Shown here in pieces: positions 1-31,421 of a DNA stretch of 38,324 nt; the first letter of the stretch is position 1; each line of letters begins with the position of its first letter. The notes below the pieces were generated by a model. The model was not told where the DNA came from, ran no database searches, and was given only the letters and a program-made list of their open reading frames with translations. Position numbers and translations under genes: made by a program. The stretch comes from an uncultured Opitutales bacterium (GTDB taxonomy: Bacteria > Verrucomicrobiota > Verrucomicrobiia > Opitutales > Oceanipulchritudinaceae). The stretch spans positions 1 through 38,324 of the forward strand of contig CAJXMX010000006.1 in assembly GCA_913056355.1 (NCBI GenBank), in the 5' to 3' direction.

Positions 1-332
1 TCCGCCGACGTGGTCGTGACCGTGGGCGGTGATTCCACCGAGCCCACCCGGGCCCCGGCCCTGAAACTGGCCGAAGACTACATTCCGAGCGACTTTTCCG
101 GGGATATCCGGTTCAATCCCCTCCTCAACGACGAAGGAACCGGGACCCTCTGGTCCGGTCCCATCGAGGCCATGGTGGGCCCCAACGACACGACCCCGGA
201 GGCGTATTCCGAAGGTGCTTTCCATCTGGTCGGCGCCCGGGTCCTCTCCGGTTCCGGGTCCCTCACCCTGGAAAACCAGAGCCTCTCCCGCAGCGGCGAG
301 GCGGCCTACGCCTATACCGGCTATATGGTCTA
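1..332 (+). repeat. Near-identical tract, copy 1 of a tandem gene duplication
   Basis: This stretch matches 4846-5177 base for base apart from about a dozen substitutions counted by eye. The first 60 bases are identical. Beyond roughly base 333 similarity falls quickly, although the two proteins remain homologous to their ends. The pattern fits a paralogous pair with recent gene conversion or strong constraint in this segment. Confidence 0.85.
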
Positions 333-2118
333 CTCCCCAGGCGCTACTGATTTGGATTCCGTTATCATCGAGTACACCGTTATGGATGCCAACGGCAATA
401 CCGCCACCGCTCAGGTGACCATCGGGCAGAGCGTCAATCAGGATCCGTACCTGACGGTGGTTACTTCCGACGCCTCGGTGGCCGAGGATGCGGGACAAGT
501 TGTTGCTTTCACCATCGGACGATCCAGCAATGCTGATCTTTCAGTGGACGAAGTGGTACAGTTCCATGTTGGAGGGAATGCGGATCCGGCAAGCATGCGT
601 GCCGATTATGCCTTTGCCGGACAGGATGACTTTGATCCGGTGACCGGGGTGGGATCGCTGACCATTCCCGCCGGACAGGGACAGGCCCAGGTCTACGCCG
701 CGATCCTCGATGACGGAGTGGATGAGGATTACGAGACCTGCATCCTGACGGTTACGGGGAGTTCATCCGGAATGACCGTCAGCCCTGTCTTCGGCGAGGC
801 AACTTTATATATCCGGGACAACTCCGTGATCTTCGTGGAGCCTTTCGACAGTTTCAACACTGACGAGACGAGCTGGAATGGCTGGTCCAACCTGAAGGAC
901 ATGCGCAGCAATGGCAAAGGTGGTGAAGACTGGTTTGACTGGGCCATCAACAGCGGATCCACGCCAACCAGCAATACCGGACCGATTGCCGACCACACCT
1001 CTGGTTCAGGAAAGTATCTTTACGCTGAAGCCTCCGGTAACGCTGAACTCTATTCCTACCTGCAGAGCCCGCTCATCGATGTCTCCGGGAAATCGGGGGC
1101 CAAACTCGAATTTGCCTACCACATGTTCGGATCAGGCATGGGGTCCCTTACCCTGGACCTTTACGCGGACGGAGTTCTGGCCGCTTCCCGGGCCTGGAGT
1201 GCCAGCGGACAGCAAAGCAGCAGCTCGACAGACTGGAAAACGGTCGAACTGGACGTGTCTTCCCTTCTCCCGGCCTCCACCCTGCAGCTTCGCTTCCGCG
1301 CCGATATCGGCTCCACGGAATTCAGTGATATTGCGATCGATGATGTTCGCCTGACCGAGATTACCGCCGGGGATCCGCTGCCGCCGCACGTCCTGGTGGA
1401 TCCCATCGGGGGTTCCATCGAGAAGGGGCAAAGCGCCTACCTTTCCGTCATTCCTGAAGGATTCCCATCACCCGGCATCCAGTGGCTCAAAAACGGCGTG
1501 GCCGTTCCGGGTGCGACCGGTCCCTCATTTTTCATTGCCTCGGTTGATACGGGCACCGTGGGCAGTTATTCCGCCCTCGTGACCAACACGGAGGGACAGG
1601 TGGTCAGCCTTGCTGCCGAAGTGACCCTTCCCGACAACCCGCCCGATGGCGATCCGGGCGGCGCCTACTTCGGCTGGGCCGGCGATGCCGGACTGATCGG
1701 AGGTCCGGGAGAGCCCGACCTCAGCAGCCCGACCCTGGATCCCGATCTCGATGGAATCCTGAACCTCTTTGAGTATGCCTTCGGAATGGATCCCATGGTC
1801 ACCGATACCGAGAAAATGCCCCGGGTCCAGATGCAGGAAGTCTCGGGCCAGATGTACCTGGAGATCACCTACAACCGCCGCATCGGGGGCACGGGCGATA
1901 CCGGGATCGACTACACCGTCGATGAGATCACTTACCGGGTGGAGGTCGCGACCAGCCTGACGGGGACATGGAGTTCCGGGTCCGGCGTGGTCGGGGAGGT
2001 TGGGACTGCCCAGAACAACGGCAACGGGACCGAGACAGTCACGGTCCGCCGGTCGGCTCCGCTGACCGGAGGCCCGGTCTTCATGCGGGTCTCCATCGAG
2101 CCGGGCTTCACCTACTAG
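1..2118 (+). CDS. Secreted multidomain protein, 5' truncated (Calx-beta, MAM, Ig-like, C-terminal tail)
   Basis: The reading frame is open from base 1, so the true start lies left of the window and about 705 codons are visible. In order I see the end of a cadherin/Ig-like tandem region (to about residue 145), a Calx-beta domain (about 148-275), a MAM-type jelly-roll domain (about 278-450, with GP..DHTSGSG and the closing IAIDDVRL), an Ig-like domain without cysteines (about 462-545), and a C-terminal tail with an acidic DPDLDGILNLFEYAFGMDP segment. These domains occur in extracellular or surface-attached proteins. It is the paralogue of the gene at 3112-7041, which carries a metzincin protease domain upstream of the same modules. 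This copy may therefore also be a metalloprotease, but that part is not visible. The gene ends with TAG. No transmembrane anchor or LPXTG motif is seen at the C-terminus. Confidence 0.85.
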   Translation, partial: SADVVVTVGGDSTEPTRAPALKLAEDYIPSDFSGDIRFNPLLNDEGTGTLWSGPIEAMVGPNDTTPEAYSEGAFHLVGARVLSGSGSLTLENQSLSRSGEAAYAYTGYMVYSPGATDLDSVIIEYTVMDANGNTATAQVTIGQSVNQDPYLTVVTSDASVAEDAGQVVAFTIGRSSNADLSVDEVVQFHVGGNADPASMRADYAFAGQDDFDPVTGVGSLTIPAGQGQAQVYAAILDDGVDEDYETCILTVTGSSSGMTVSPVFGEATLYIRDNSVIFVEPFDSFNTDETSWNGWSNLKDMRSNGKGGEDWFDWAINSGSTPTSNTGPIADHTSGSGKYLYAEASGNAELYSYLQSPLIDVSGKSGAKLEFAYHMFGSGMGSLTLDLYADGVLAASRAWSASGQQSSSSTDWKTVELDVSSLLPASTLQLRFRADIGSTEFSDIAIDDVRLTEITAGDPLPPHVLVDPIGGSIEKGQSAYLSVIPEGFPSPGIQWLKNGVAVPGATGPSFFIASVDTGTVGSYSALVTNTEGQVVSLAAEVTLPDNPPDGDPGGAYFGWAGDAGLIGGPGEPDLSSPTLDPDLDGILNLFEYAFGMDPMVTDTEKMPRVQMQEVSGQMYLEITYNRRIGGTGDTGIDYTVDEITYRVEVATSLTGTWSSGSGVVGEVGTAQNNGNGTETVTVRRSAPLTGGPVFMRVSIEPGFTY

Positions 2119-3105: not shown

Positions 3106-3339
3106 CTTTTAATGATGAAGCATCGTCCAAACTTATACTCGCCCAAGACTCTCATGCTGATCCTCGTGGCCGTTTTGGCCACCGCTATTCTGGTGCTGAG
3201 AACCATTTCTCCCGCCCGTGGATCCGTGGATGAAGGGGTTCTTCCGAACCCCGCCTAGGCCTCCGAACCGGAGGTTGCTTCCACGTTCCCAAAACCGGCT
3301 CCTGAATCTACCCCAGCCGCTTCGCAAGTTGACGACTGG

Positions 3340-5811
3340 ATGAACAACGGGGGTGAGTTCACCGAGCCCACCGCCGAGCTGGTGGCATGGCTGGATGCGG
3401 GGAAGCCCCTGGCCATCCGGATCGGGGATGAAGAAGCTCGCTACGGTTTCTGTCCGTCCGGGATCACGACAGAAGACTTCCGGCTGTCCTCCGGGATCAC
3501 CCGGGAAATGCCGGCGGAGTACCGCATTTACAGCGGCCGTCAGCTGCTGCCGGACGGCTCCCTTGGGGAGCGGGCCTCGGTTGCCGTGGTGAACGGCGCG
3601 GTCTCTATGGCCGTCACCCGCGACGGGATGGAATACCTGGTCGAGACCGATCCCGAAACGGGCCAGCTCTACGCGACTGAAGTGACAAGTCTTTATCGTT
3701 CCCCCGCCTGTCAGGATGAAACCCATGGTGAGGATCATTTGTTCTGTGCCCTGTCTGAAGGGGGCCGGTTGGCTTCGGTCACCGCCCCCGACGGGGCCGG
3801 GATGATGGAAGGCGAGCGGATTCCGGTGGATTTCGACTACCCGGACCTGCAGGCCGGCGACATTGCCAACGCCGAGACACCACCGGTGGAATCAGCCCAG
3901 GTGAGCCACCCCTACTTTCGCCGGAGTCCCGTTTACGATGCCTCCCTGCGGGACATGGTCGTGCTGCATACCTCGGCCAAGAGCCAGACCGGGGATTCCT
4001 CCTTGCTCAGCAGCCGGGCCGCTTCCTATTTCAGCTACTTTGCCCAGACGGCCGACATTTACGAGCGCCAGCTGGGACTGCGGTACCTGATCCAGGAACT
4101 GATCCTGGTCCCCAGCGACTCCAACGACGAGGATCCCGGCAACCCGCCGGACGGGGTCTATTCCAACAGTCCGGACCTGGAGCACTACCAGGTCTGGCTG
4201 AACAAGTACCGCCCGCAATCGACGTACAAGTACGGCCACGCGGCCCTCTGGACCCTTGTCGATGGAAGCGCCGGCGGTGTGGTTGGCAGGGCCTGGCTGG
4301 ATTCCTACGGTTCCTCCAGGTACGCCCAGTCGGTGCAGGAGCGGAACTGGGGCTGGCTGGTCCATTCGCATGAGCTGGGACACAATGTGGGCTCCTCCCA
4401 CACCTCGGGGGGCGTCATGAATCCTTCCCTGATCTCCGGAGCGGAGGATTTCTTCACCCTTGTTTCCGGTCAGACCTACACCGGGGCCAAGGACATTTTC
4501 AACTACATGGGATACGCCAGCCGGGCCTATGTCTACGGTCCGGCCAGCCTGCGCAATCCGGAGGAAATGCCTTTCGGGATCGATGACGCCGTCTCCACCG
4601 CAACCGATACCGCCGTGAGTTTCAACCCCCTGGCCAACGACCGCAGGCAGGTCACCAACGGGGCCCTCAACAACCTGCGCCTGATCGAGGTCGGGGCCGT
4701 TTATCCGGCAGCCGCCGGCAGCGCCGAGATCGTCAATGGCCAGATCCAGTTTACCCCGGCCGGCGGCTACACCGGGCAGGTCTGGTTTACCTACACCCTG
4801 GCCGGCGATGTCGGCAACAACGGGAACGGCTGGTACCATTCCGCCGACGTGGTCGTGACCGTGGGCGGTGATTCCACCGAGCCCACCCGGGCCCCGGCCC
4901 TGAAACTGGCCGAAGATTACATTCCGAGCGACTTTTCCGGGGATATCCGGTTCAATCCCCTCCTCAACGACGAAGGAACCGGGGCCCTCTGGTCCGGTCC
5001 TATCGAGGCCATGGTGGGCCCCAACGACACGACCCCGGAGGCTTATTCCGAAGGAGCTTTCCATCTGGTCAGCGCCCGGGTCCTCTCCGGTTCCGGGTCC
5101 CTTGTCCTGGAAACCCAGAGCCTCTCCCGCAGCGGGGAGGCGGCCTACGCCTACACCGGCTATATGGTCTACACTCCCGGATCCGCGGAATCGGGTTCTG
5201 TCATCATCGAATACACCGTCATGGATGCCAACGGGAACACCTCCACGGGGCAGGTGACCATCGGGTCGGATTCCTCCGGTACACCGACGGACCCGGATCC
5301 CATAGACCCCACGCCCACGGATCCCCCGCCTCCGGAGCCGTACCTGACGGTGGTCGCCTCCGATTCCTCGGTGGCGGAGGATGCCGGGCAGGTTGTTGCC
5401 TTCACCTTCGAGCGGGTGGATGCCGACCTCGCCAAGGCTGAATCGGTTGATTTCCTTGTCGGGGGCACTGCCGATCCAACCAGTTTGAGGGCGGACTATT
5501 CCCTCGCCGGCCATGACCTCTTCGATCCGGCCACCGGAGTCGGATCCATCACCATTCCGGCTGGCGAAAGCCAGGCCTACCTGTACTGCGCCATACTTTC
5601 TGACTGGCAGCAGGAGGGAGACGAAACCTGTGTCTTAACCATCACCGGAAGTTCCTCCAATCTGGCAATCAGCAGCACCGCCTTTGAGGCGACCCTCAAA
5701 ATTGTGGATCCCGCGATCAGTACCACCAGTTTCGTCGAGTCCTTCGACGGTTTCACCAGTGATCCCGCAACATGGAATGGTTGGACCAACGCCAAAAACA
5801 TGAATAAATAG
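3340..5811 (+). CDS. Metzincin (reprolysin-like) protease fragment between the two amber codons
   Basis: This is the longest open piece of the interrupted gene, 823 aa from the only ATG after the first TAG. The zinc-binding signature HELGHNVGSSH lies at 4369-4401, with Gly-Gly and a Met-containing turn (GGVMNPSL) just after it, as expected for M12-type metzincins. The protease part covers roughly 3900-4560. It is followed by cadherin/Ig-like modules (4580-5260), a Pro/Asp/Thr-rich linker (about 5270-5335) absent from the paralogue, and a Calx-beta domain (5340-5720). If translated from 3340 it would lack the signal anchor encoded before the first TAG and would probably remain cytoplasmic. That argues against it being a functional gene by itself. 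Confidence 0.6.
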   Translation: MNNGGEFTEPTAELVAWLDAGKPLAIRIGDEEARYGFCPSGITTEDFRLSSGITREMPAEYRIYSGRQLLPDGSLGERASVAVVNGAVSMAVTRDGMEYLVETDPETGQLYATEVTSLYRSPACQDETHGEDHLFCALSEGGRLASVTAPDGAGMMEGERIPVDFDYPDLQAGDIANAETPPVESAQVSHPYFRRSPVYDASLRDMVVLHTSAKSQTGDSSLLSSRAASYFSYFAQTADIYERQLGLRYLIQELILVPSDSNDEDPGNPPDGVYSNSPDLEHYQVWLNKYRPQSTYKYGHAALWTLVDGSAGGVVGRAWLDSYGSSRYAQSVQERNWGWLVHSHELGHNVGSSHTSGGVMNPSLISGAEDFFTLVSGQTYTGAKDIFNYMGYASRAYVYGPASLRNPEEMPFGIDDAVSTATDTAVSFNPLANDRRQVTNGALNNLRLIEVGAVYPAAAGSAEIVNGQIQFTPAGGYTGQVWFTYTLAGDVGNNGNGWYHSADVVVTVGGDSTEPTRAPALKLAEDYIPSDFSGDIRFNPLLNDEGTGALWSGPIEAMVGPNDTTPEAYSEGAFHLVSARVLSGSGSLVLETQSLSRSGEAAYAYTGYMVYTPGSAESGSVIIEYTVMDANGNTSTGQVTIGSDSSGTPTDPDPIDPTPTDPPPPEPYLTVVASDSSVAEDAGQVVAFTFERVDADLAKAESVDFLVGGTADPTSLRADYSLAGHDLFDPATGVGSITIPAGESQAYLYCAILSDWQQEGDETCVLTITGSSSNLAISSTAFEATLKIVDPAISTTSFVESFDGFTSDPATWNGWTNAKNMNK
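4846..5177 (+). repeat. Near-identical tract, copy 2 of a tandem gene duplication
   Basis: This is the partner of 1-332 in the paralogous gene, with about a dozen base differences in 332. It lies in the same protein module of both genes, in the same orientation, 4845 bases apart. Recombination between the copies would remove the rhomboid gene and one metalloprotease copy. Confidence 0.85.
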
Positions 5812-5979
5812 GGCAAGGGTGGCGATGACTGGGCCGACTGGCTGCTGAACCAGGGATCCACTCCCACCAGGAATACAGGTCCGGCCGGGGACAACAGCAG
5901 TGGAACCGGAAATTACCTGTATGCCGAAGCAAGTGGAAATGATGGCCTGTTCTCCATCCTGAACAGTCCTTCCCTTGAT

Positions 5980-7041
5980 ATGAATGGACGCGCTGAAGCC
6001 CAACTTGAGTTTGCCTACCATATGTATGGATCTGACATGGGCTCCTTGACCGTGGACCTTTACGTGGACGGCGTGCTCGCCAGGTCCTCAATCTGGAGCC
6101 GCTCCGGGCAGCAGAGTTCCGACCCGGGTGACTGGCAGATTGCCGTTCTGGACCTCAGCCCGTACCTGCCGGCCGGCTCGATTCAACTGAGTTTCAGAGC
6201 CGACTTCGGATACGGTGATTTGAGCGACATCGCCATAGACGACCTACAGGTCGTTTCAACCGCTGTCGGCAACGCAGTGGCCCCGACCGTGCTGGTGGAT
6301 CCCCAGAGTAGTTCCGTGGAAGCGGGTGAAAGTGCCTACCTTTCGGTGATTGCTGAAGGTTCTCCGTCCCCGGGTGTCCAGTGGTACCAGAACGGCGCAG
6401 CGATCCCCGGAGCAACCGGCCTGTCCTATTACATCCCTGCAGTGGATGGCTCAGCCATCGGCACCTACGAGGCGGTGATCAGCAATTCCGGTGGCGAGGT
6501 GGTCAGCCTTCCCGCCACTCTGGATGTTCCCGGTGAAACGCCCCCCGTGGATCCCGAGCCGGCTCCGATGCCGGGAGACGCCTACTTTGAGTGGGCTGGC
6601 CTCATGGGACTGTTCACCGGCGGTCCAGGCGGGGCGGACGTGAGTGGTTTGTTCCTGGATCCGGATATGGACGATACCGCCAACCTGTTGGAGTTTGCCT
6701 TTGGTCTGGACCCGCTTGTTTACACCACCACCGGCCTGCCGCAGATTGTAACCACCGATAGCGGTGGCGATTCGTACCTGGAAATTACCTATCGCCGACG
6801 CATTGGAGGCAGCGGAACAACCGGGATCGATTACACCGTGGACGACATCACCTACTTTGTCGAAACGACCACCAATCCCAACAAGGAATGGACCTCCGGC
6901 GCTTCCGAAGTCGTCGCGGTTGGTTCCCCGGTGGACAATGGGGACGGAACGGAGACGGTTGTCGTTCGCCGCCTGACACCGATCAAGGGGGGAAGCCCGG
7001 TCTACCTGAGGGTAACCGTAGAAGCAGGCTTCTCCTACTAG
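5980..7041 (+). CDS. C-terminal fragment of the interrupted metalloprotease (MAM end, Ig-like, C-terminal tail)
   Basis: This 353-aa open frame follows the second TAG and is in the same frame as the upstream part. Its first ATG lies inside the MAM domain, just before AQLEFAYHMYG, so it is not a natural gene start. After the MAM end (IAIDDLQV) come an Ig-like domain (about residues 100-180), a linker, and the shared tail with DPDMDDTANLLEFAFGLDP and a closing YLRVTVEAGFSY. The whole fragment aligns with residues 365-705 of the protein at 1-2118. It is best read as part of the gene starting at 3112. Confidence 0.55.
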   Translation: MNGRAEAQLEFAYHMYGSDMGSLTVDLYVDGVLARSSIWSRSGQQSSDPGDWQIAVLDLSPYLPAGSIQLSFRADFGYGDLSDIAIDDLQVVSTAVGNAVAPTVLVDPQSSSVEAGESAYLSVIAEGSPSPGVQWYQNGAAIPGATGLSYYIPAVDGSAIGTYEAVISNSGGEVVSLPATLDVPGETPPVDPEPAPMPGDAYFEWAGLMGLFTGGPGGADVSGLFLDPDMDDTANLLEFAFGLDPLVYTTTGLPQIVTTDSGGDSYLEITYRRRIGGSGTTGIDYTVDDITYFVETTTNPNKEWTSGASEVVAVGSPVDNGDGTETVVVRRLTPIKGGSPVYLRVTVEAGFSY

Positions 7042-21706: not shown

Positions 21707-22867
21707 TTAGCCGCCGAGGACGGCGATGAAATACCCGGCGGCGAGGGCGCTCCCGATGACGCCGGCCACGTTCGGTCCCATGGCGTGCATGAGCAGGAAA
21801 TTGCCGGGATCGGCCTTCTGCCCTTCCACCTGGCTGACCCGGGCCGCCATCGGAACGGCACTGACCCCGGCCGAGCCGATCAACGGGTTGATCTTGTTGT
21901 GGCTGAACAGATTCATGAGCTTGGCCATCAGGACCCCGCTGGCGGTGGCGATCAGGAAGGCTGTCACCCCCAGGGCCAGGATGCCCAGGGTTTCCCCTCT
22001 GAGGAACTGGTCCCAGCCCATTTTCAAGCCTACTGTCAGGCCCAGGAAAATCGTCACGACATTGATGATCTCATTCTGGGCGGCCCGGACCAGGCGCTCC
22101 GTGACGCCGTTTTCCCGGATGAAGTTCCCGATGAAGAGCATCGAGATCAGCGGGGCCGCGGCCGGAATGACGACCAGGCAGAAGGTCATGACCACCAGGG
22201 CGAAGATCAGCTTTTCCAGCTTGGAGACCTTGCGCAGCGACTTCATGCGGATCTTGCGCTCCTTTTCGGAAGTCAGCAGCCGCATCACCGGAGGCTGGAT
22301 GACCGGCACCAGGGCCATGTAGGAATAGGCGGCCACGGCAATGGCCCCCAGAAGGTGGGGAGCCAGTTTGTTGGCCACGAAAATCGAGGTCGGCCCGTCG
22401 GCGCCGCCGATAATGCCGATTGCGGCAGCCTCCTGGAGGGAGAAGACCCCGCTGCCCACGGCGGCGAAGAAGGTCGCGAATATGCCAAACTGGGCGGCGG
22501 CGCCGAGGAGCAGGGTCCGCGGATTGGCGATCAGGGGACCGAAATCCGTCAGCGCGCCCACTCCCATGAAAATCAGGGGCGGGAAGATCTCCAGCTTGAC
22601 CCCCAGCTGTATATAATAGAACAGCCCGCCGGGAGCGAGCAGTTCATGGGTCTGGGGATCGTAGACCGGGTGCTGGAGGATTACATCGTGGATGGGGAGA
22701 TTGGCCAGCAGGGCTCCCAGGCTGATCGGGACCAGGAGCAACGGCTCGAACTGCTTGACGATCGCCAGGTACAGCAGAACCCCGATAATCACCCACATCA
22801 CGACCATCTGCCAATTAAGGGCAACAAAACCGGTCGATTGGAGAACGTCGCGTATGGATTCCATCAT
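21707..22867 (-). CDS. mmdB: Na+-translocating decarboxylase, beta subunit (OadB/GcdB/MmdB family)
   Basis: The 386-aa integral membrane subunit decarboxylates carboxybiotin and couples this to Na+ export. It has about nine membrane segments. The strongly conserved [17 protein letters not shown] stretch includes the aspartate implicated in Na+ binding in OadB. Other family segments are [18 protein letters not shown] and the C-terminal [16 protein letters not shown]. It follows the biotin carrier by 21 bases. Context with mmdA, mce and the mutase genes favours methylmalonyl-CoA over oxaloacetate or glutaconyl-CoA as the substrate. Two adjacent ATG codons (22867 and 22864) could serve as start. 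Confidence 0.93.
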
Positions 22868-22888
22868 GGTCTGGTCTGGGGTCTGGGG

Positions 22889-23272
22889 TTATTCGATTGT
22901 CAGGAGAGGCTGGCCTTCTTCGACCGAATCGCCGGCGCTCACAAGGATGGCCTTGACGGTCCCGGCAGCATGGGCGTTGACGACGGTGTTCATCTTCATG
23001 GCTTCCAGGGTGACGACTTTCTGGCCGGCCTGGACCTGGGCCCCGACGGCCACGTCCACCGAGACCACCTTGCCGGCCAGCGGACTGGCGACTTCGCCTC
23101 CGTCGGCGCCGGGAGCGGGTGCGGCCTTGGGGGCGGGTGCGGCCACCGCGGCGGCACCGGCTGAGCGGGGCTGCCGGGGGCCGGCCGGGGCGGCGGGTTC
23201 TTCCTCGCCGATCAACTCGGCGACAACGTCGTAACTCTTCCCATTGAGAGTGATGCGGAATTGTTTTTTCAT
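22889..23272 (-). CDS. mmdC: Biotin carboxyl carrier subunit (MmdC/gamma) of the decarboxylase
   Basis: This 127-aa protein has a short N-terminal beta segment (MKKQFRITLNGKSYDVVAEL), a flexible Ala/Pro-rich linker (about residues 26-58) and a biotinyl domain (about 60-127). The biotinylation motif is EAMKM with K93 as the modified lysine. The linker lets the biotin swing between the carboxyltransferase (MmdA) and the membrane decarboxylase (MmdB). The start is ATG at 23272; the open frame extends upstream to 23368 but that part overlaps the intergenic region and the mmdD end, without similarity. Confidence 0.93.
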   Translation of the reverse strand: MKKQFRITLNGKSYDVVAELIGEEEPAAPAGPRQPRSAGAAAVAAPAPKAAPAPGADGGEVASPLAGKVVSVDVAVGAQVQAGQKVVTLEAMKMNTVVNAHAAGTVKAILVSAGDSVEEGQPLLTIE

Positions 23273-23303
23273 TATGCTGAAATCTACTGGTTTGTGGATG
23301 CCT

Positions 23304-23642
23304 TTACCGGATCCGGTGCGAGGCGAAATGTTCGCGACGACCCTCGCGGTTCCAGTCCTTGGCGGCACTGCTGCGAATCGAAACCACCCGCGAACGCCGC
23401 CCCATCAGGAGGGCCGCACAGGCGCTGATGGCCACCACTTCCTCGTCCGTGATGTCTCCCTCCGTGGCCGGTCCCGCCGCGGCCGCAGCCGGCCGGGCCG
23501 GAGCGGCGGCCGGGCGCCTGGCGAAGTAGCTGCCGATAAGGGCGGTCAGGCCGTAAAGGAGCCCCAGGACAAAAAGGACCACCACGAATCCGATGATGTG
23601 TTCCAGGGAGACGATGAAGGGACTGGCTTCTGCGATGACCAT
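23304..23642 (-). CDS. mmdD: OadG/MmdD-type small membrane subunit of the decarboxylase
   Basis: The 112-aa protein has one N-terminal membrane helix (about residues 15-39), an Ala/Pro-rich linker (about 43-62), and a C-terminal segment with EEVVAISACAALLMG and the ending WNREGRREHFASHRIR. This architecture and ending are those of OadG-like gamma/delta subunits, which hold the complex together and bind the carboxyltransferase. The order mmdA, mmdD, mmdC, mmdB is that of the Veillonella methylmalonyl-CoA decarboxylase operon, without a recognisable mmdE. Confidence 0.85.
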   Translation of the reverse strand: MVIAEASPFIVSLEHIIGFVVVLFVLGLLYGLTALIGSYFARRPAAAPARPAAAAAGPATEGDITDEEVVAISACAALLMGRRSRVVSIRSSAAKDWNREGRREHFASHRIR

Positions 23643-23672
23643 GAGGATCGTTTTAGGTTATAAATCTTAAAA

Positions 23673-25226
23673 TTAAAGAGGAATATTCCCGTGCTTCTTG
23701 GGCGGACGGGTCTCCCGTTTGCTGAGCAGGCTCCGCAGGCCGAGGGAAACGGCGCCGCGGGTATGGCTGGGCTCAATCACATCGGTGATCAGGGCCCGGC
23801 CCGCCGCCTGGTAGGGGCTGGCGAACTCGTCGTGGTAGGAGGAAATCAATTCCTTGCGCTTGGCATCGGGATCTTCCGAGGCCTTGATCTCCTTGCCGAA
23901 GACGATGTTGACCGCGCCCTCGGCTCCCATGACCGCTATCTCGGCGGTCGGCCAGGCGAAGACCAGGTCCGCGCCGAGGTCCGAGCTGCACATGGCCAGG
24001 TAGGCCCCTCCGTAGGCTTTGCGCATGATGACCGTAATCTTCGGCACCGTGGAGGCGGCATAACCGAAGAGCATCTTGGCCCCGTGGCGGATGATGCCGC
24101 CCCGTTCCTGGGCCAGTCCCGGGAAGAATCCGGGCACGTCGACCAGGGTTACCAGCGGGATCGAGTAGATGTTGCAGACCCGGACAAAGCGGGCCCCCTT
24201 GTCGGAGGCGTCAATGTCCAGGCAGCCGGCCTTGACCTTGGGCTGGTTGGCCACCACGCCGACCACGACCCCGTCGATGCGGGCGAATCCGGTCACCAGG
24301 TTGGCCGCAAAGTCGGGCATGATCTCGAAGAAGCTTTCCTTGTCGACCAGGGTGTCGATGACCTCCTTGACGTCGAAGGGTTCCTTCGGGTTCTCCGGGA
24401 TGATGTCGTTGAAGCGCTTGATCGGGTCCAGGCTGAGGGATTCCGTCGGATGGTGCGGCGCGTCATCGATGTTGTTCAACGGCAGGTAGGACATGAGGTG
24501 CTGGGCCAGGTCCAGGGCGTGCTCGTCGTCCTCCGCGATGAGGTGGATATTGCCGCTCACGCTGGCATGCGCATCCGCCGTGGCGAACTGCTCCAGCTTG
24601 GCCTTCTCACCGGTCGCGGCCTCGATGACGGAGGGCCCGCAGATGAACATGTTGGCGTTTTCCCGGGTCATGATCAGGAAGTCCGTCAGGGCGGGGGAAT
24701 AGGCCGCGCCACCGGCGCAGGGGCCGGCAATGATGGCGATCTGGGGCACCAGTCCCGAACACTGCACGTTGCGGAAAAAGATTCTGCCATAGCCGGACAG
24801 GGAGTCCACGCCTTCCTGGATGCGGGCCCCGCCCGAGTCGTTCCAGCCGATGATCGGGATCCCGGCCTTGATGGCGTAGTCCATCAGGTCGCAGACTTTC
24901 TTGGCATGGATGCGGCCCAGGGCTCCGCCGCCGACCGTGAAGTCGTGGGCGAAGGCGGCCACCGGGCGACCGTCGATATAGCCGGTGCCGGTCACCACCC
25001 CGTCCCCGGGGAGCTTTTTCTTATCCATCCCGAAACTCATGCAGGAATGCTGGGCGTGCATCCCGAACTCCTGGAAGGTGTTCGGGTCGAACAGTTTCTC
25101 CAGTCGTTCGCGGGCGGTCAGGATTCCCTTTTCCCTGCGCTTCTGCTGCTTGTCCTCGCCGCCTCCGGCCAATGCGACCTTGCGCCGCGCCTCGAGGTCT
25201 TCCAGTAATTTTGGATCTATGGGCAT
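23673..25226 (-). CDS. mmdA: Methylmalonyl-CoA decarboxylase carboxyltransferase (alpha) subunit
   Basis: The 517-aa protein is of the acyl-CoA carboxylase beta / carboxyltransferase family, with both crotonase-like halves. Visible family segments are ARERLEKLFD, DFTVGGGALGRIHAKKVCDL, the oxyanion-hole region NDSGGARIQEGVDSLSGYG, GPCAGGAAYSPALTDF, and in the second half VDVPGFFPGLAQERGGIIRHG and AYGGAYLAMCS. It transfers the carboxyl group from methylmalonyl-CoA to biotin on MmdC. The same family includes propionyl-CoA carboxylase beta (PccB). The adjacent mmdD, mmdC and mmdB genes support the decarboxylase role, though the complex could run in reverse. The ATG is preceded by AAGGGGAA. Confidence 0.92.
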   Translation of the reverse strand: MPIDPKLLEDLEARRKVALAGGGEDKQQKRREKGILTARERLEKLFDPNTFQEFGMHAQHSCMSFGMDKKKLPGDGVVTGTGYIDGRPVAAFAHDFTVGGGALGRIHAKKVCDLMDYAIKAGIPIIGWNDSGGARIQEGVDSLSGYGRIFFRNVQCSGLVPQIAIIAGPCAGGAAYSPALTDFLIMTRENANMFICGPSVIEAATGEKAKLEQFATADAHASVSGNIHLIAEDDEHALDLAQHLMSYLPLNNIDDAPHHPTESLSLDPIKRFNDIIPENPKEPFDVKEVIDTLVDKESFFEIMPDFAANLVTGFARIDGVVVGVVANQPKVKAGCLDIDASDKGARFVRVCNIYSIPLVTLVDVPGFFPGLAQERGGIIRHGAKMLFGYAASTVPKITVIMRKAYGGAYLAMCSSDLGADLVFAWPTAEIAVMGAEGAVNIVFGKEIKASEDPDAKRKELISSYHDEFASPYQAAGRALITDVIEPSHTRGAVSLGLRSLLSKRETRPPKKHGNIPL

Positions 25227-25254
25227 TTTGCTTTCCCCTTGTTTTGAAAGTGAT

Positions 25255-25662
25255 TCAGGCCTTTTTCTCGGCGCAGAACTCGGTCAGCACGCCGTGGGTC
25301 GACTTCGGATGCAGGAAGGCTACCAGTTTGTTGGCCGCCCCCTCGAAAGGCACTTCGTGGATCAGGCGGGTCCCCGCCTCCGCGGCCTGCTTCAGCTGGC
25401 CCGCGATATTGTTGGTCCGGAAGGCGATGTGATGGATCCCCTCGCCGTTCTTTTCCACGAACTTGGCGATCGGGCTTTCCGGGTCGGTCGCTTCCAGCAG
25501 TTCCAGATGCACCTCGCCAACGTGAAAGAAAGCCGTCCTGACCTTCTGCGAAGCCACTTCCTCCACCGCCTCGCAGTGCAGCCCCAGTGTTTTTTCATAG
25601 TAGCGGATCCCGTCCTCCAGCGACTTCACCGCAATTCCAATATGGTCGATCTGTTCAATCAT
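25255..25662 (-). CDS. mce: Methylmalonyl-CoA epimerase
   Basis: This 135-aa VOC-fold protein interconverts the (R) and (S) forms of methylmalonyl-CoA, linking the mutase product to the decarboxylase. Typical features are DHIGIAV with metal ligand H7, VHLELLE, GIHHIAF (H77/H78) and the closing LTEFC with E128, giving the expected set of metal ligands. It has a clear ribosome binding site, AGGAG, six bases before the ATG. It is the first gene of the leftward decarboxylase operon, divergent from mutA. Confidence 0.95.
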   Translation of the reverse strand: MIEQIDHIGIAVKSLEDGIRYYEKTLGLHCEAVEEVASQKVRTAFFHVGEVHLELLEATDPESPIAKFVEKNGEGIHHIAFRTNNIAGQLKQAAEAGTRLIHEVPFEGAANKLVAFLHPKSTHGVLTEFCAEKKA

Positions 25663-25850
25663 TTTCTACTCCTGTTATAATAGGTCTTGCATAATCCCAT
25701 TCCTGCCCTCAGGACAAGACTAAAATTAAAATTACTTAACGAAAAATCTTGTAGTATTAGAAAAATTAATCAAAAACAGGATCCGTAACCGCGCCCCTGC
25801 CGGCGCTCAAAGCCTCTTTTCTCTAGAACTCAACGATCAACACTCGAAAC
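25663..25850. promoter_or_regulatory. Divergent intergenic region between mce and mutA
   Basis: This 188-base gap is the most AT-rich part of the neighbourhood, especially 25719-25782. It must hold the start signals of both the decarboxylase operon and the mutase operon. I could not identify convincing -35/-10 pairs on either strand. TATTAT close to the mce ribosome binding site on the minus strand is a possible -10 element. No riboswitch fold is evident by eye. Confidence 0.5.
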
Positions 25851-27977
25851 ATGGACGAGAACACATCATCCCGTTTATTGAGCGAGTTTCCTGCCCATAC
25901 GTACGAGGAATGGAAATCCGCCGCAACAGATCTTTTGAAGGGGCGCCCCTTCGAGAAGACCCTGGTCACGCCGACTTACGAGGGATTTGATATCCAGCCG
26001 ATCTATACCCGCGAGGTGCTGGACAAGCTCCTGCATACCAGCGACCTGCCGGGAGGGGGAAGCCTGGTCCGGGGCGGCCGTCCGGATGGATACCTCCAGG
26101 CCGGCTGGCTGGTCTCCCAGGAGCTGACCGCCCCGACACCGGCGGAAATGAACCAGGTGGCCCGCAGGGAACTGGCCAGCGGCCAGACCGAACTCAATGT
26201 CTGGCTGGACGGGCCCAGCCGTCGTGCCGAGGAGCCCGCCGCGGATAACCTCTCCAGGGTCGGCCTCTGCGGGGTTTCCCTGAGCACCATCGACGACATG
26301 AAGCAGTTGCTGGACGGCATCGACCTCGGTGAAGTCTCCCTCTACCTGCAGGGAGGCAAGGCCGCCCCGGCGCTGTACGCGCTGCTGGTCCCGGCCCTCG
26401 CCGAGACGGGCCGCGACCCGGCGGCCCTTCGCGGCTGCCTGGGCATGGATCCCTTCAGCTGGCTGGTCGAGGCCGGGAACGGCGCCGAACTGGAAAAGCA
26501 GTACGATGAAATGGCGGACATCCTGCGCCATGCCATGAAGAACCTGCCCAGACTGCAGGTCATCAACATTCAGGGCCACGGCTACCACAACGGCGGTGCT
26601 TCCTCGACCCAGGAGATGGCCATCGTGCTGGCCGGTGCGGTGGCCTGCCTGAAAGCCATGGAATCCCGCGGCCTGAAGGCGGTGGACGTCATTCCGCGGA
26701 TGCGGCTCTCCCTTTCCGTCGGAGGCAATTACTTTGTCGAGGTGGCCAAGTTCAGGGCCCTGCGCCTGCTCTGGAGCAAGGTGGCCGGGGCTTTCGGGGT
26801 GGCGGAAGATTCCCGCGCGGTGCACCTGCACGCCCGGACCGGCCTGTGGAATAAAACCCTTTTTGATCCCTATGTGAACCTCTTGCGGACCACCACCGAG
26901 GCCTTCAGCGCCGTGGTTGGCGGGTGCGACAGCCTGCATGTGGGTCCCTTCGACGAGGTGGTCCGGGAAAGCGACAGTTTCTCCCGCCGGATTGCCCGCA
27001 ACACCCACGCCGTCCTGGCCGAGGAGTGTGACATGCGGCGGGTGGTGGATCCCGCCGGCGGTTCCTGGGCGGTGGAATCCCTGACCGACCAGATGGCCGC
27101 GCAGGCCTGGAAGCAGCTCCAGGACATCGAGTCCCGGGGCGGACTTCCGGCGGTGCTGAAGGACGGCAGCCTGCAGGCCTCCATCGAGGCCACCCGTCAG
27201 GAGAAGGCGCGCAACATCCAGCGGCGCAAGGATGTCATCGTCGGCACCAACACTTATCCCAACGCCGGCGAGGAACTGCTCAAGCCGGCCAAGGTAGATT
27301 ACGCCACCGCGGCCCGCGGTCGGGCCGAGGCGGTCGCCGCCGCCAAGGCCGCCCGTGACAACCCGGCTGTTGTTTCCGCCCTGGAGCGTTCCGGGGAATG
27401 CACCGGCAACGACCGCATGGAGGCTCTCCTGGCCGCCGCAGCCGCCGGGGCCACCACCGCCGAGCTGCTTAAGGCCGCCGGCCTGGACGGCCAGTCGGTA
27501 GTGGTCAAGTCGATACCGCTGATGCGGGGCGCCGGGGATTTCGAGAAGCTTCGCCTGTCCGCCATGGCCCTGTCCGCCAAGGGACAGGAACCCGTGATCC
27601 ACCAGTTGAACATGGGCCCCTCGCGGCGCTACCGGATCCGGGCCGACTGGACCAGCGCCTTCTTCCAGGTGGCCGGGTTCAGGCTGCTCAACGACGACGA
27701 TTATGACTCCGTCGAGGATGCCGTGGAAGCCCTCCGGTCCGGGGGGGCGCGAGTGGCGGTCATCACCTCCGATGACGAGACCTACGCCTCCATGGTCGGA
27801 CCCCTGGCCAAGGCCGTCAAGGCCCTCGACGGCGGGATCAAGGTCCTGGTCGCCGGGGCCCCGGGCGAGAATGAGGAAGCCTGGCGCGAGGCCGGGGTGG
27901 AGGACTTTGTCCATGTCCGGGTCAACAACTACACCTTCAACCGGGCGCTTCTGGAATCCATGGGCGCCGAACTCTGA
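25851..27977 (+). CDS. mutA: Methylmalonyl-CoA mutase, small (beta) subunit
   Basis: The 708-aa protein has the mutase N-terminal fold (for example [41 protein letters not shown]) and a C-terminal Rossmann-like domain (about 570-708). It lacks the DxHxxG cobalamin-binding motif. This is the normal state of the non-catalytic small chain in heterodimeric mutases, which supports the catalytic MutB chain. It is 35 bases upstream of mutB in the same operon. No ribosome binding site is obvious; the ATG at 25851 leads straight into a plausible N-terminus. Confidence 0.94.
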
Positions 27978-28012
27978 AGCGGACTAGAGAACCTTTAACT
28001 TGTCACAGAAAA

Positions 28013-30196
28013 ATGACGACAACGCCTGATTTCACCAAGCTGGACTACCAGCCGAAGAACACCAAGCAGGGTTACGCCGACTGGAAGGCGGACCTGGAAA
28101 AGAATACCGGCAAGCGCGCCGAGGACTATGTCTGGGACACCATGGAACAGATCCCGGTCAAGCCCCTCTTCACCGCCGAGGACTATGAAGGCATGGAGCA
28201 CCTCGACTACCAGGCCGGGATCGCCCCGTTCCTGCGGGGTCCCTACGCCACCATGTACGTCTTCCGCCCGTGGACGGTCCGCCAGTACGCCGGCTTCTCG
28301 ACCGCCGAGGAGTCCAACGCCTTCTACCGCCGCAACCTGGCGGCCGGGCAGAGGGGCCTCTCGGTGGCCTTCGACCTGGCCACCCACCGCGGCTACGACA
28401 GCGACCACGAGCGCGTGGTCGGGGACGTCGGCAAGGCCGGGGTAGCGATCGACTCGATACTGGACATGCGCATCCTCTTCGACCGGATCCCGCTCAACAA
28501 GGTGTCCGTCTCGATGACCATGAACGGCGCGGTGCTGCCGGTCCTGGCCTTCTACATCGTGGCCGCCCTGGAGCAGGGGGCCAAGCTGGAGGAGTTGTCC
28601 GGGACCATCCAGAACGACATTCTCAAGGAGTACATGGTGCGGAACACCTACATTTATCCGCCCATCCCGAGCATGAAGATCATCGCCGACATCTTCGAGT
28701 TCACCTCGAGGAACATGCCGAAGTTCAACTCCATTTCCATTTCCGGCTACCACATGCAGGAGGCCGGCGCCACCGCCGACCTGGAAATGGCCTACACCCT
28801 GGCCGACGGGCTGGAGTACATCCGGACCGGGATCGAGGCCGGCATCGACATCGACGCCTTCGCCCCGCGCCTGAGCTTCTTCTGGGCCCAGGGGAAGAAC
28901 TACTTCATGGAAGTGGCCAAGATGCGGGCCGCGCGCCTGCTCTGGTCCAAGATCGTCAAGCAGTTCAACCCGAAGAACCCGAAGTCGCTGGCCCTGCGGA
29001 CGCACTCCCAGACCAGCGGATGGAGCCTGACCGAGCAGGATCCGTACAACAACGTGACCCGGACCTGCATCGAGGCCATGGCCGCCGCCCTGGGACACAC
29101 CCAGAGCCTGCACACCAACGCCCTTGACGAGGCCATCGCCCTGCCGACCGATTTCTCCGCCCGGATCGCCCGCAACACCCAGCTCTTCCTCCAGGACGAG
29201 ACGGGGATCTGCAAGATCATCGACCCATGGGGCGGCAGCTACTACGTCGAGGCCCTGACCCACGCCCTCAAGGAGCGCGCCTGGGCCCACATCGAGGAAG
29301 TCGAGGGGCTCGGCGGAATGGCCAAGGCCATCGAGACCGGCCTGCCCAAGATGCGCATCGAGGAGGCCGCGGCCCGCCGCCAGGCCCGCATCGACAGCGC
29401 CCGGGAGACCATTGTCGGCGTCAACAAGTACCGCCTCGAGAAGGAGGACCCGCTGGAGATCCTGGACGTCGACAACACGGCGGTCCGGGAAGCCCAGCTG
29501 CGCCGGCTGGAAAAGCTCCGTTCCGAGCGGGACGATTCTGCCTGCCGCCAGGTGCTCGAGCGCCTGACCAAGGCGGCGGCCGGTGAAACGAAGGAGAACC
29601 TGCTGGCCCTGGCCATTGAGGCCACCCAGGCCAGGGCTTCCCTGGGCGAGATTTCCAGCGCCATGGAGAAAGTATATGGTCGCCATCAGGCGGTAATTCG
29701 ATCGATTAGCGGTGTGTACAGCAGCGAATACGGAGACAAGGGCGAGGTGGAGCAGATCCGCGCCCGGACCGACGCCTTTGCCGAGAGGGAAGGCCGTCGT
29801 CCCCGGATCATGGTTGCCAAGATGGGCCAGGACGGGCACGACCGCGGCGCCAAGGTGGTGGCCACGGCCTATGCCGACCTCGGCTTTGACGTCGACATCG
29901 GACCGCTCTTCCAGACCCCGGAGGAAACAGCTTCCCAGGCGGTGGAGAACGATGTCCACATCGTGGCCATGAGCTCCCTCGCCGCCGGGCACAAGACCCT
30001 TCTGCCCAAACTGGTCGAGGCCCTGGCCTCCCATGGCCGGGAAGACATCCTGGTTGTCGTCGGCGGGGTCATCCCGGCCCAGGATTACGACGAGCTGTAC
30101 ACCAACGGGGCGAGCGCCATTTTCGGCCCGGGAACGGTCATTACCGAATCCGCCCGCAAGCTGCTCGACATCCTCGACCAACAGCACGAGAGCTGA
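28013..30196 (+). CDS. mutB: Methylmalonyl-CoA mutase, large (alpha) subunit
   Basis: MutB interconverts succinyl-CoA and methylmalonyl-CoA using adenosylcobalamin. The 727-aa protein has the substrate-binding TIM barrel with highly conserved stretches ([57 protein letters not shown]) and a C-terminal B12 domain. The cobalamin motif DGHDRG is at residues 607-612 (H609 as the lower axial ligand), followed by SSLAAGH and GGVIP. It is followed by a leader with repeats and then meaB. Confidence 0.98.
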
Positions 30197-30209
30197 AATA
30201 TAAATCTCT

Positions 30210-30288
30210 AGCTCAATCTTGATCTCAAGCTTCGGGCCATTCCGGTTTGCCGGGGATTGAGCTTGAGATAGGGCTTGAGCTTGAGATC
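30210..30288. repeat. Direct and inverted repeats in the mutB-meaB spacer
   Basis: Two direct copies of TTGAGCTTGAGAT occur at 30257-30269 and 30275-30287. Upstream, GATCTCAAGCT (30221-30231) is the exact complement of AGCTTGAGATC (30278-30288), and its last ten bases also pair with 30260-30269. GCTCAATC (30211-30218) pairs with GATTGAGC (30255-30262). Two mutually exclusive hairpins are therefore possible, in a spacer between two genes of one pathway. This could be an attenuator, a processing site or a dispersed repeat. Confidence 0.75.
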
Positions 30289-30395
30289 CTGAAATTATGC
30301 CTGAGGAAAGAAAGCGGCCCGAGTGGTCCCCGCCTGATGGCGGGGAAGGCTTCACCTCGCATGTCATGAAAGGGGTCGAGGGAGGGCATGAAGGT

Positions 30396-31421
30396 ATGCC
30401 GGGATCGGTTTCACCGGTTTCCCGGAAGGCTCCCCTGAAGCGCCAGCAACTCAGCGTGTCGGACCTTGAAAAAGGAATCCGGCAAGGCAACCGGACCATG
30501 CTGGCCCGGGCCATTACCCTTGTGGAAAGCAATTCAACCCGTCACCAGGCGGAGTCCCAGGAACTGCTGGACCGGCTGATGGACCGGACCGGAAAGGCCC
30601 TGCGGATCGGGATCACCGGTGTGCCGGGGGCTGGCAAATCGACCACCATCGACACCTTCGGCTCGATGCTTTGCGAGGAGGGGCACCAGGTGGCGGTCCT
30701 GGCGGTGGATCCCTCAAGTTCCGTCACCAAGGGCAGCATTCTGGGGGACAAGACCCGGATGGAGAAACTGCTGCGCAGCCCCAAGGCCTACGTCCGGCCG
30801 TCACCGACCGGGGGCTGCCTTGGCGGGGTGGCCCGCAAGACGCGGGAGACACTGCTCCTTTGCGAGGCCTTCGGCTTCGACATTATCATCCTGGAGACGG
30901 TCGGGGTGGGGCAGAGCGAGGTCACCGTCCGGTCCATGGTCGATTTCTTTCTCCTGATCCTGATCTCCGGTGCCGGGGACGAACTGCAGGGAATCAAAAA
31001 GGGCGTTATCGAGCTGGCGGACGCCATCGTCGTCAACAAGGCAGACGGGGACAACCAGCGCCGGGCGAGAATGGCCAAGGCCGAATACAACCGCGTTTTT
31101 AGTTTTCTGCAGCCCTTCACCGAGGGCTGGAAGCCGAAGGCCTACACGGCCTCGGCGCTGACCGGGGAGGGAATTCCCGGCATCTGGGAAGTGATCCAGA
31201 ACTTCAGGGAGACCACCCGGGCCAGCGGGGTCTTCGAGCGTCGCCGGCGGGAACAGAACCTGGACTGGATGCGCGGCATGCTGGACGAGGCCCTGCGGCG
31301 CCGCTTCTTCGCCGATCCGGACGTGGTGCGGAAGCTGGAGTCCCTTTCCTCGGCGGTGGCCCGCGGGGAGATGCCTCCGGTCAAGGCTGTTGAAACATTG
31401 ATGGCCGAGTGGGTTCGTTGA
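30396..31421 (+). CDS. meaB: MeaB/ArgK-type GTPase, methylmalonyl-CoA mutase chaperone
   Basis: MeaB proteins load and protect adenosylcobalamin in methylmalonyl-CoA mutase. The G3E-type P-loop is GVPGAGKST, followed by DPSSSVTKGSILGDKTRM, the ETVGVGQSE switch region and the NKAD base-recognition motif. I prefer the ATG at 30396 (341 aa): GGAGGG lies nine bases upstream and the length fits the family (about 330). An ATG at 30297 in the same frame would add 33 residues with no similarity and would place a GC-rich hairpin (TCCCCGCC/GGCGGGGA, 30327-30346) inside the gene. The last 41 bases overlap the convergent mscS-like gene. Confidence 0.93.
   Translation: MPGSVSPVSRKAPLKRQQLSVSDLEKGIRQGNRTMLARAITLVESNSTRHQAESQELLDRLMDRTGKALRIGITGVPGAGKSTTIDTFGSMLCEEGHQVAVLAVDPSSSVTKGSILGDKTRMEKLLRSPKAYVRPSPTGGCLGGVARKTRETLLLCEAFGFDIIILETVGVGQSEVTVRSMVDFFLLILISGAGDELQGIKKGVIELADAIVVNKADGDNQRRARMAKAEYNRVFSFLQPFTEGWKPKAYTASALTGEGIPGIWEVIQNFRETTRASGVFERRRREQNLDWMRGMLDEALRRRFFADPDVVRKLESLSSAVARGEMPPVKAVETLMAEWVR

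Follow-up and report, generated by a model that had tools for sequence, protein, structure and literature searches.

The window analysed here, a stretch of 38324 bases that makes up a complete contig, carries at its start a tandem pair of genes for a large multidomain protease, which flank a gene for a rhomboid intramembrane protease. The features of this region are as follows:

1..2118, plus strand: 3' part of the upstream tandem copy, with the end of the Ig-like region and the Calx-beta-like, MAM, Ig and C-terminal domains; its 5' half is lost at the contig start
2164..2973, plus strand: gene for a rhomboid intramembrane protease, situated between the copies (Pfam Rhomboid, 2.6e-16)
3112..3255, plus strand: 5' piece of the downstream copy, start and signal anchor, 48 codons
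3256..3258, plus strand: premature TAG 1, in a variable linker downstream of the anchor; homologues are uninterrupted
3259..5808, plus strand: metzincin protease, Ig-like and Calx-beta-like domains (Reprolysin_5, Big_9; the Calx-beta-like label was assigned by eye and is not a profile match)
4840..5265, plus strand: tract sharing 92% identity with contig bases 1-426, without any difference over the first 77
5809..5811, plus strand: premature TAG 2, in the early part of the MAM domain; the paralogue has AAT (Asn)
5812..7041, plus strand: remaining MAM domain, Ig domain (Ig_3, 2e-7) and C-terminal domain, with its own TAG at the end

Farther downstream, 21707-31421 encodes a carboxyltransferase, an oxaloacetate-decarboxylase-type beta subunit, two methylmalonyl-CoA mutase subunits and MeaB, which together form a propionate/methylmalonyl-CoA gene cluster.

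The downstream copy (3112-7041, plus strand) occupies 1310 codons of a single frame. Its translation has internal stops at two codons only, 49 (TAG 3256-3258) and 900 (TAG 5809-5811), ahead of the terminal TAG at 7039, and thus agrees with the initial annotation, which had described the frame as continuous apart from these two codons and free of frameshifts. The 48-codon 5' piece, which opens with charged residues and continues into a hydrophobic anchor, was correctly recognised there as a signal anchor, a hydrophobic N-terminus being present at the matching place in all homologues. Across the whole frame, the encoded product comprises a signal anchor followed by metzincin protease, Ig-like, MAM and Ig domains. 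The middle piece (850 codons, between the two TAGs) is matched by the Pfam profiles Reprolysin_5 (4e-12; 47 bits against a cut-off of 27) and Big_9 (2.5e-15), and the last piece (409 codons, 3' of the second TAG) by MAM (5e-18) and Ig (2e-7). The HExxHxxGxxH motif is present as HELGHNVGSSH, intact as reported earlier; together with the Reprolysin_5 match it marks the product as a putative metzincin/M12B-like (reprolysin) peptidase. A sequence search found no solved structure matching it. The open length and the domains matching in the same frame on either side of a stop indicate that this arrangement is not due to chance.

The gene is accessory: of the 16 further genomes searched within the family, three belonging to the same genus, none yielded a match at E<=1e-8. 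A scan of genome contigs with a single protein query and a plasmid search likewise gave no match. Relatives are present in five genomes among the 373 sampled from the order and the 384 sampled from the class, and in all five the matched regions are free of inner stops. Three of these (G052, G084, G668) are more distant than the other two, from an Opitutales draft genome (G210, 47%) and an Akkermansiaceae draft genome (G661, 47%), which are complete and 42-47% identical to the gene described here. Both run in a single open frame from a hydrophobic N-terminus through the protease, Ig-like, Calx-beta-like, MAM and Ig domains. The orthologue comparison proposed at the outset thus finds uninterrupted relatives at both sites, and with two complete relatives in one open frame both TAGs appear as real interruptions. 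Counted in the alignment, the distance from the start methionine to a conserved GEF motif is 81 positions here versus 76 and 70 in these two relatives; this similar spacing argues that the 5' piece forms the genuine N-terminus and that TAG 1 is a real interruption in a variable linker. Visual inspection of the long frames beside the same two relatives revealed no rhomboid gene. In a same-genus genome sample, 36 aligned regions covering 37 kb contained no inner stops, an overlap too small for the comparison to be used.

The upstream copy at 1-2118 had been treated as an uninterrupted paralogue. Its alignment across both flanks of TAG 2, with AAT (Asn) opposite the stop, holds; what the contig contains is only the 3' part of that copy, and since the contig begins inside it, its protease half and the position equivalent to TAG 1 are unseen. 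The missing 5' half was not found elsewhere in the assembly of 425 contigs. Contig bases 1-77 are an exact repeat of 4840-4916, after which the two sequences diverge, and in a second contig of the same genome (C12) the first 77 bases likewise recur exactly farther in (1-77 and 395-471 of L059). We interpret these self-repeats at two contig starts as the trace of k=77 de Bruijn assembly breaks at repeats. The tract 4840..5265 represents a recent duplication or conversion and also the point at which the assembly broke. Beyond it the DNA of the copies has diverged by about 35% (~65% identical), the TAG 2 region included. Caution is due in that the intact paralogue used as a yardstick is a contig-end fragment produced by a k=77 assembly break. 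Recombinational phase variation between the copies, offered earlier as an option, finds no positive evidence: there is a single nearly identical shared tract, TAG 2 lies outside it and the 5' half of the paralogue is unassembled.

Several lines of evidence bear on whether UAG is read as sense in this genome. The RF1 gene is complete, with its PVT and GGQ motifs, and TAG terminates 123 of 505 coding-like stretches, about a quarter, in a 787 kb genome sample. It is also the ordinary stop of the neighbouring genes ending at 2116, 7039, 15711 and 35290, as the initial annotation had stated. The search that it had proposed for an amber-suppressor tRNA or pyl genes came out negative: no CUA anticodon occurs among the 32 tRNAs found, in a tRNA set and genome that are both incomplete, and PylS gave no match above the cut-off, only background matches of the kind that 13 of 14 control genomes show as well. 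Neither 35 sulfatase matches nor 55 ABC-domain matches of this genome contain an inner stop, so an interrupted gene is exceptional here. The RNA 3' of each TAG folds no better than shuffled sequences (z 0.23 and 1.64), the window has no Rfam elements and a literature search found nothing relevant. A codon-score scan for further in-frame stops was set aside, as it returned many chance matches from shadow frames and neighbouring genes; its stop mix (TAG in 22 of 122), which is not a count of pseudogenes, shows no excess of TAG relative to gene ends (123 of 505). As far as it was recovered, the genome displays neither a pyrrolysine or amber-suppressor system, as marked by a CUA tRNA or PylS, nor a genome-wide reassignment of TAG, as marked by loss of RF1 and of TAG stops with many in-frame TAGs.

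There is nothing remarkable in both stops being TAG, and no explanation is needed: 52-58% of the one-step nonsense mutations available to the codons of this gene lead to TAG, and under simple mutation models both stops are TAG with a probability of 0.27-0.33 among double-nonsense cases. The dN/dS comparison suggested previously gives ~0.2 for the shared tract as well as for each flank of TAG 2, with dS saturated outside the shared tract. It shows past purifying selection, which covers the time before the stops arose, and does not date the stops themselves.

We regard it as probable that nonsense mutations have recently inactivated this copy of a secreted multidomain metzincin protease gene and made it a pseudogene within a tandem pair around the rhomboid gene; the very young pseudogene is the best supported of the options offered earlier. 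The premature stops relative to uninterrupted homologues, the signs that UAG works as a stop, the rarity of interrupted genes in this genome, the mutational odds of two TAGs, the accessory character, the tandem redundancy, the recent shared tract and past purifying selection speak for it. Against it stand the otherwise undecayed state of the 3.9 kb, with neither frameshifts nor deletions, which implies either that the loss is very recent or that the stops are not real, and the upstream copy being seen without its 5' half, so that its intactness is not demonstrated. The second of these implications is the core of the main rival, an unlikely one in our estimate: in a fragmented, metagenome-type assembly, wrong bases or a consensus blended from different strains or from both tandem copies would have placed stops in a gene that is intact in the cell. 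The 425 contigs favour it, as does the k=77 repeat break inside the gene pair: with the 5' half of the other copy missing, reads of the two copies may have been merged. However, two independent stop-making errors with zero frameshift errors in one gene would be unlikely, the 90 other domain matches lack inner stops, and merging cannot have created TAG 2, where the copies are only ~65% identical in DNA.

Two further explanations would retain a functional product. Gene-specific amber readthrough or suppression, yielding a low level of full-length protease, could account for the intact frame, active-site motif and downstream domains; yet RF1 is present, a suppressor tRNA and PylS were not detected, no structured element follows the TAGs, the stops are absent from relatives and losses at two serial stops would multiply. 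We hold it to be highly improbable, and give equally little credence to its specific form, in which double readthrough via a suppressor unrecovered in the incomplete genome would maintain a very small amount of secreted protease; TAG usage and the domain matches lend the option no support either. Alternatively, the pieces might be separate functional genes with re-initiation at ATG 3340, in the protease piece, and ATG 5980, after TAG 2. Both pieces do have such an inner ATG and retain coding composition, but the protease piece would have no signal for export, the second would start within the MAM domain, each homologue is one long frame and no clear ribosome-binding site was seen before ATG 3340, making this arrangement very unlikely.

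Under the nonsense pseudogene reading, two point mutations would have generated the UAG codons, the first of which would leave only a 48-residue signal-anchor peptide; a product restarted at ATG 3340 would have no signal and would be cut again within the MAM domain. We infer that the organism itself carries the stops, that they arose recently and that the function may be supplied by the upstream copy. The significance is small: a tandem pair of accessory secreted proteases, one copy of which seems just to have been lost.

Among known systems, the gene resembles the large secreted metzincin proteases (Pfam Reprolysin_5/M12B-like) of Opitutales and Akkermansiaceae drafts (JABBCA010000098.1, JALZUC010000017.1) in their common domain order, 42-47% identity and HELGHNVG motif; whereas those are single uninterrupted frames, it contains two TAGs. 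With bacterial nonsense pseudogenes of duplicate genes it shares premature stops, an accessory character, tandem duplication and past purifying selection. Unlike these, 3112-7041 has so far accumulated no frameshifts or deletions, and its sister copy is seen in part only.
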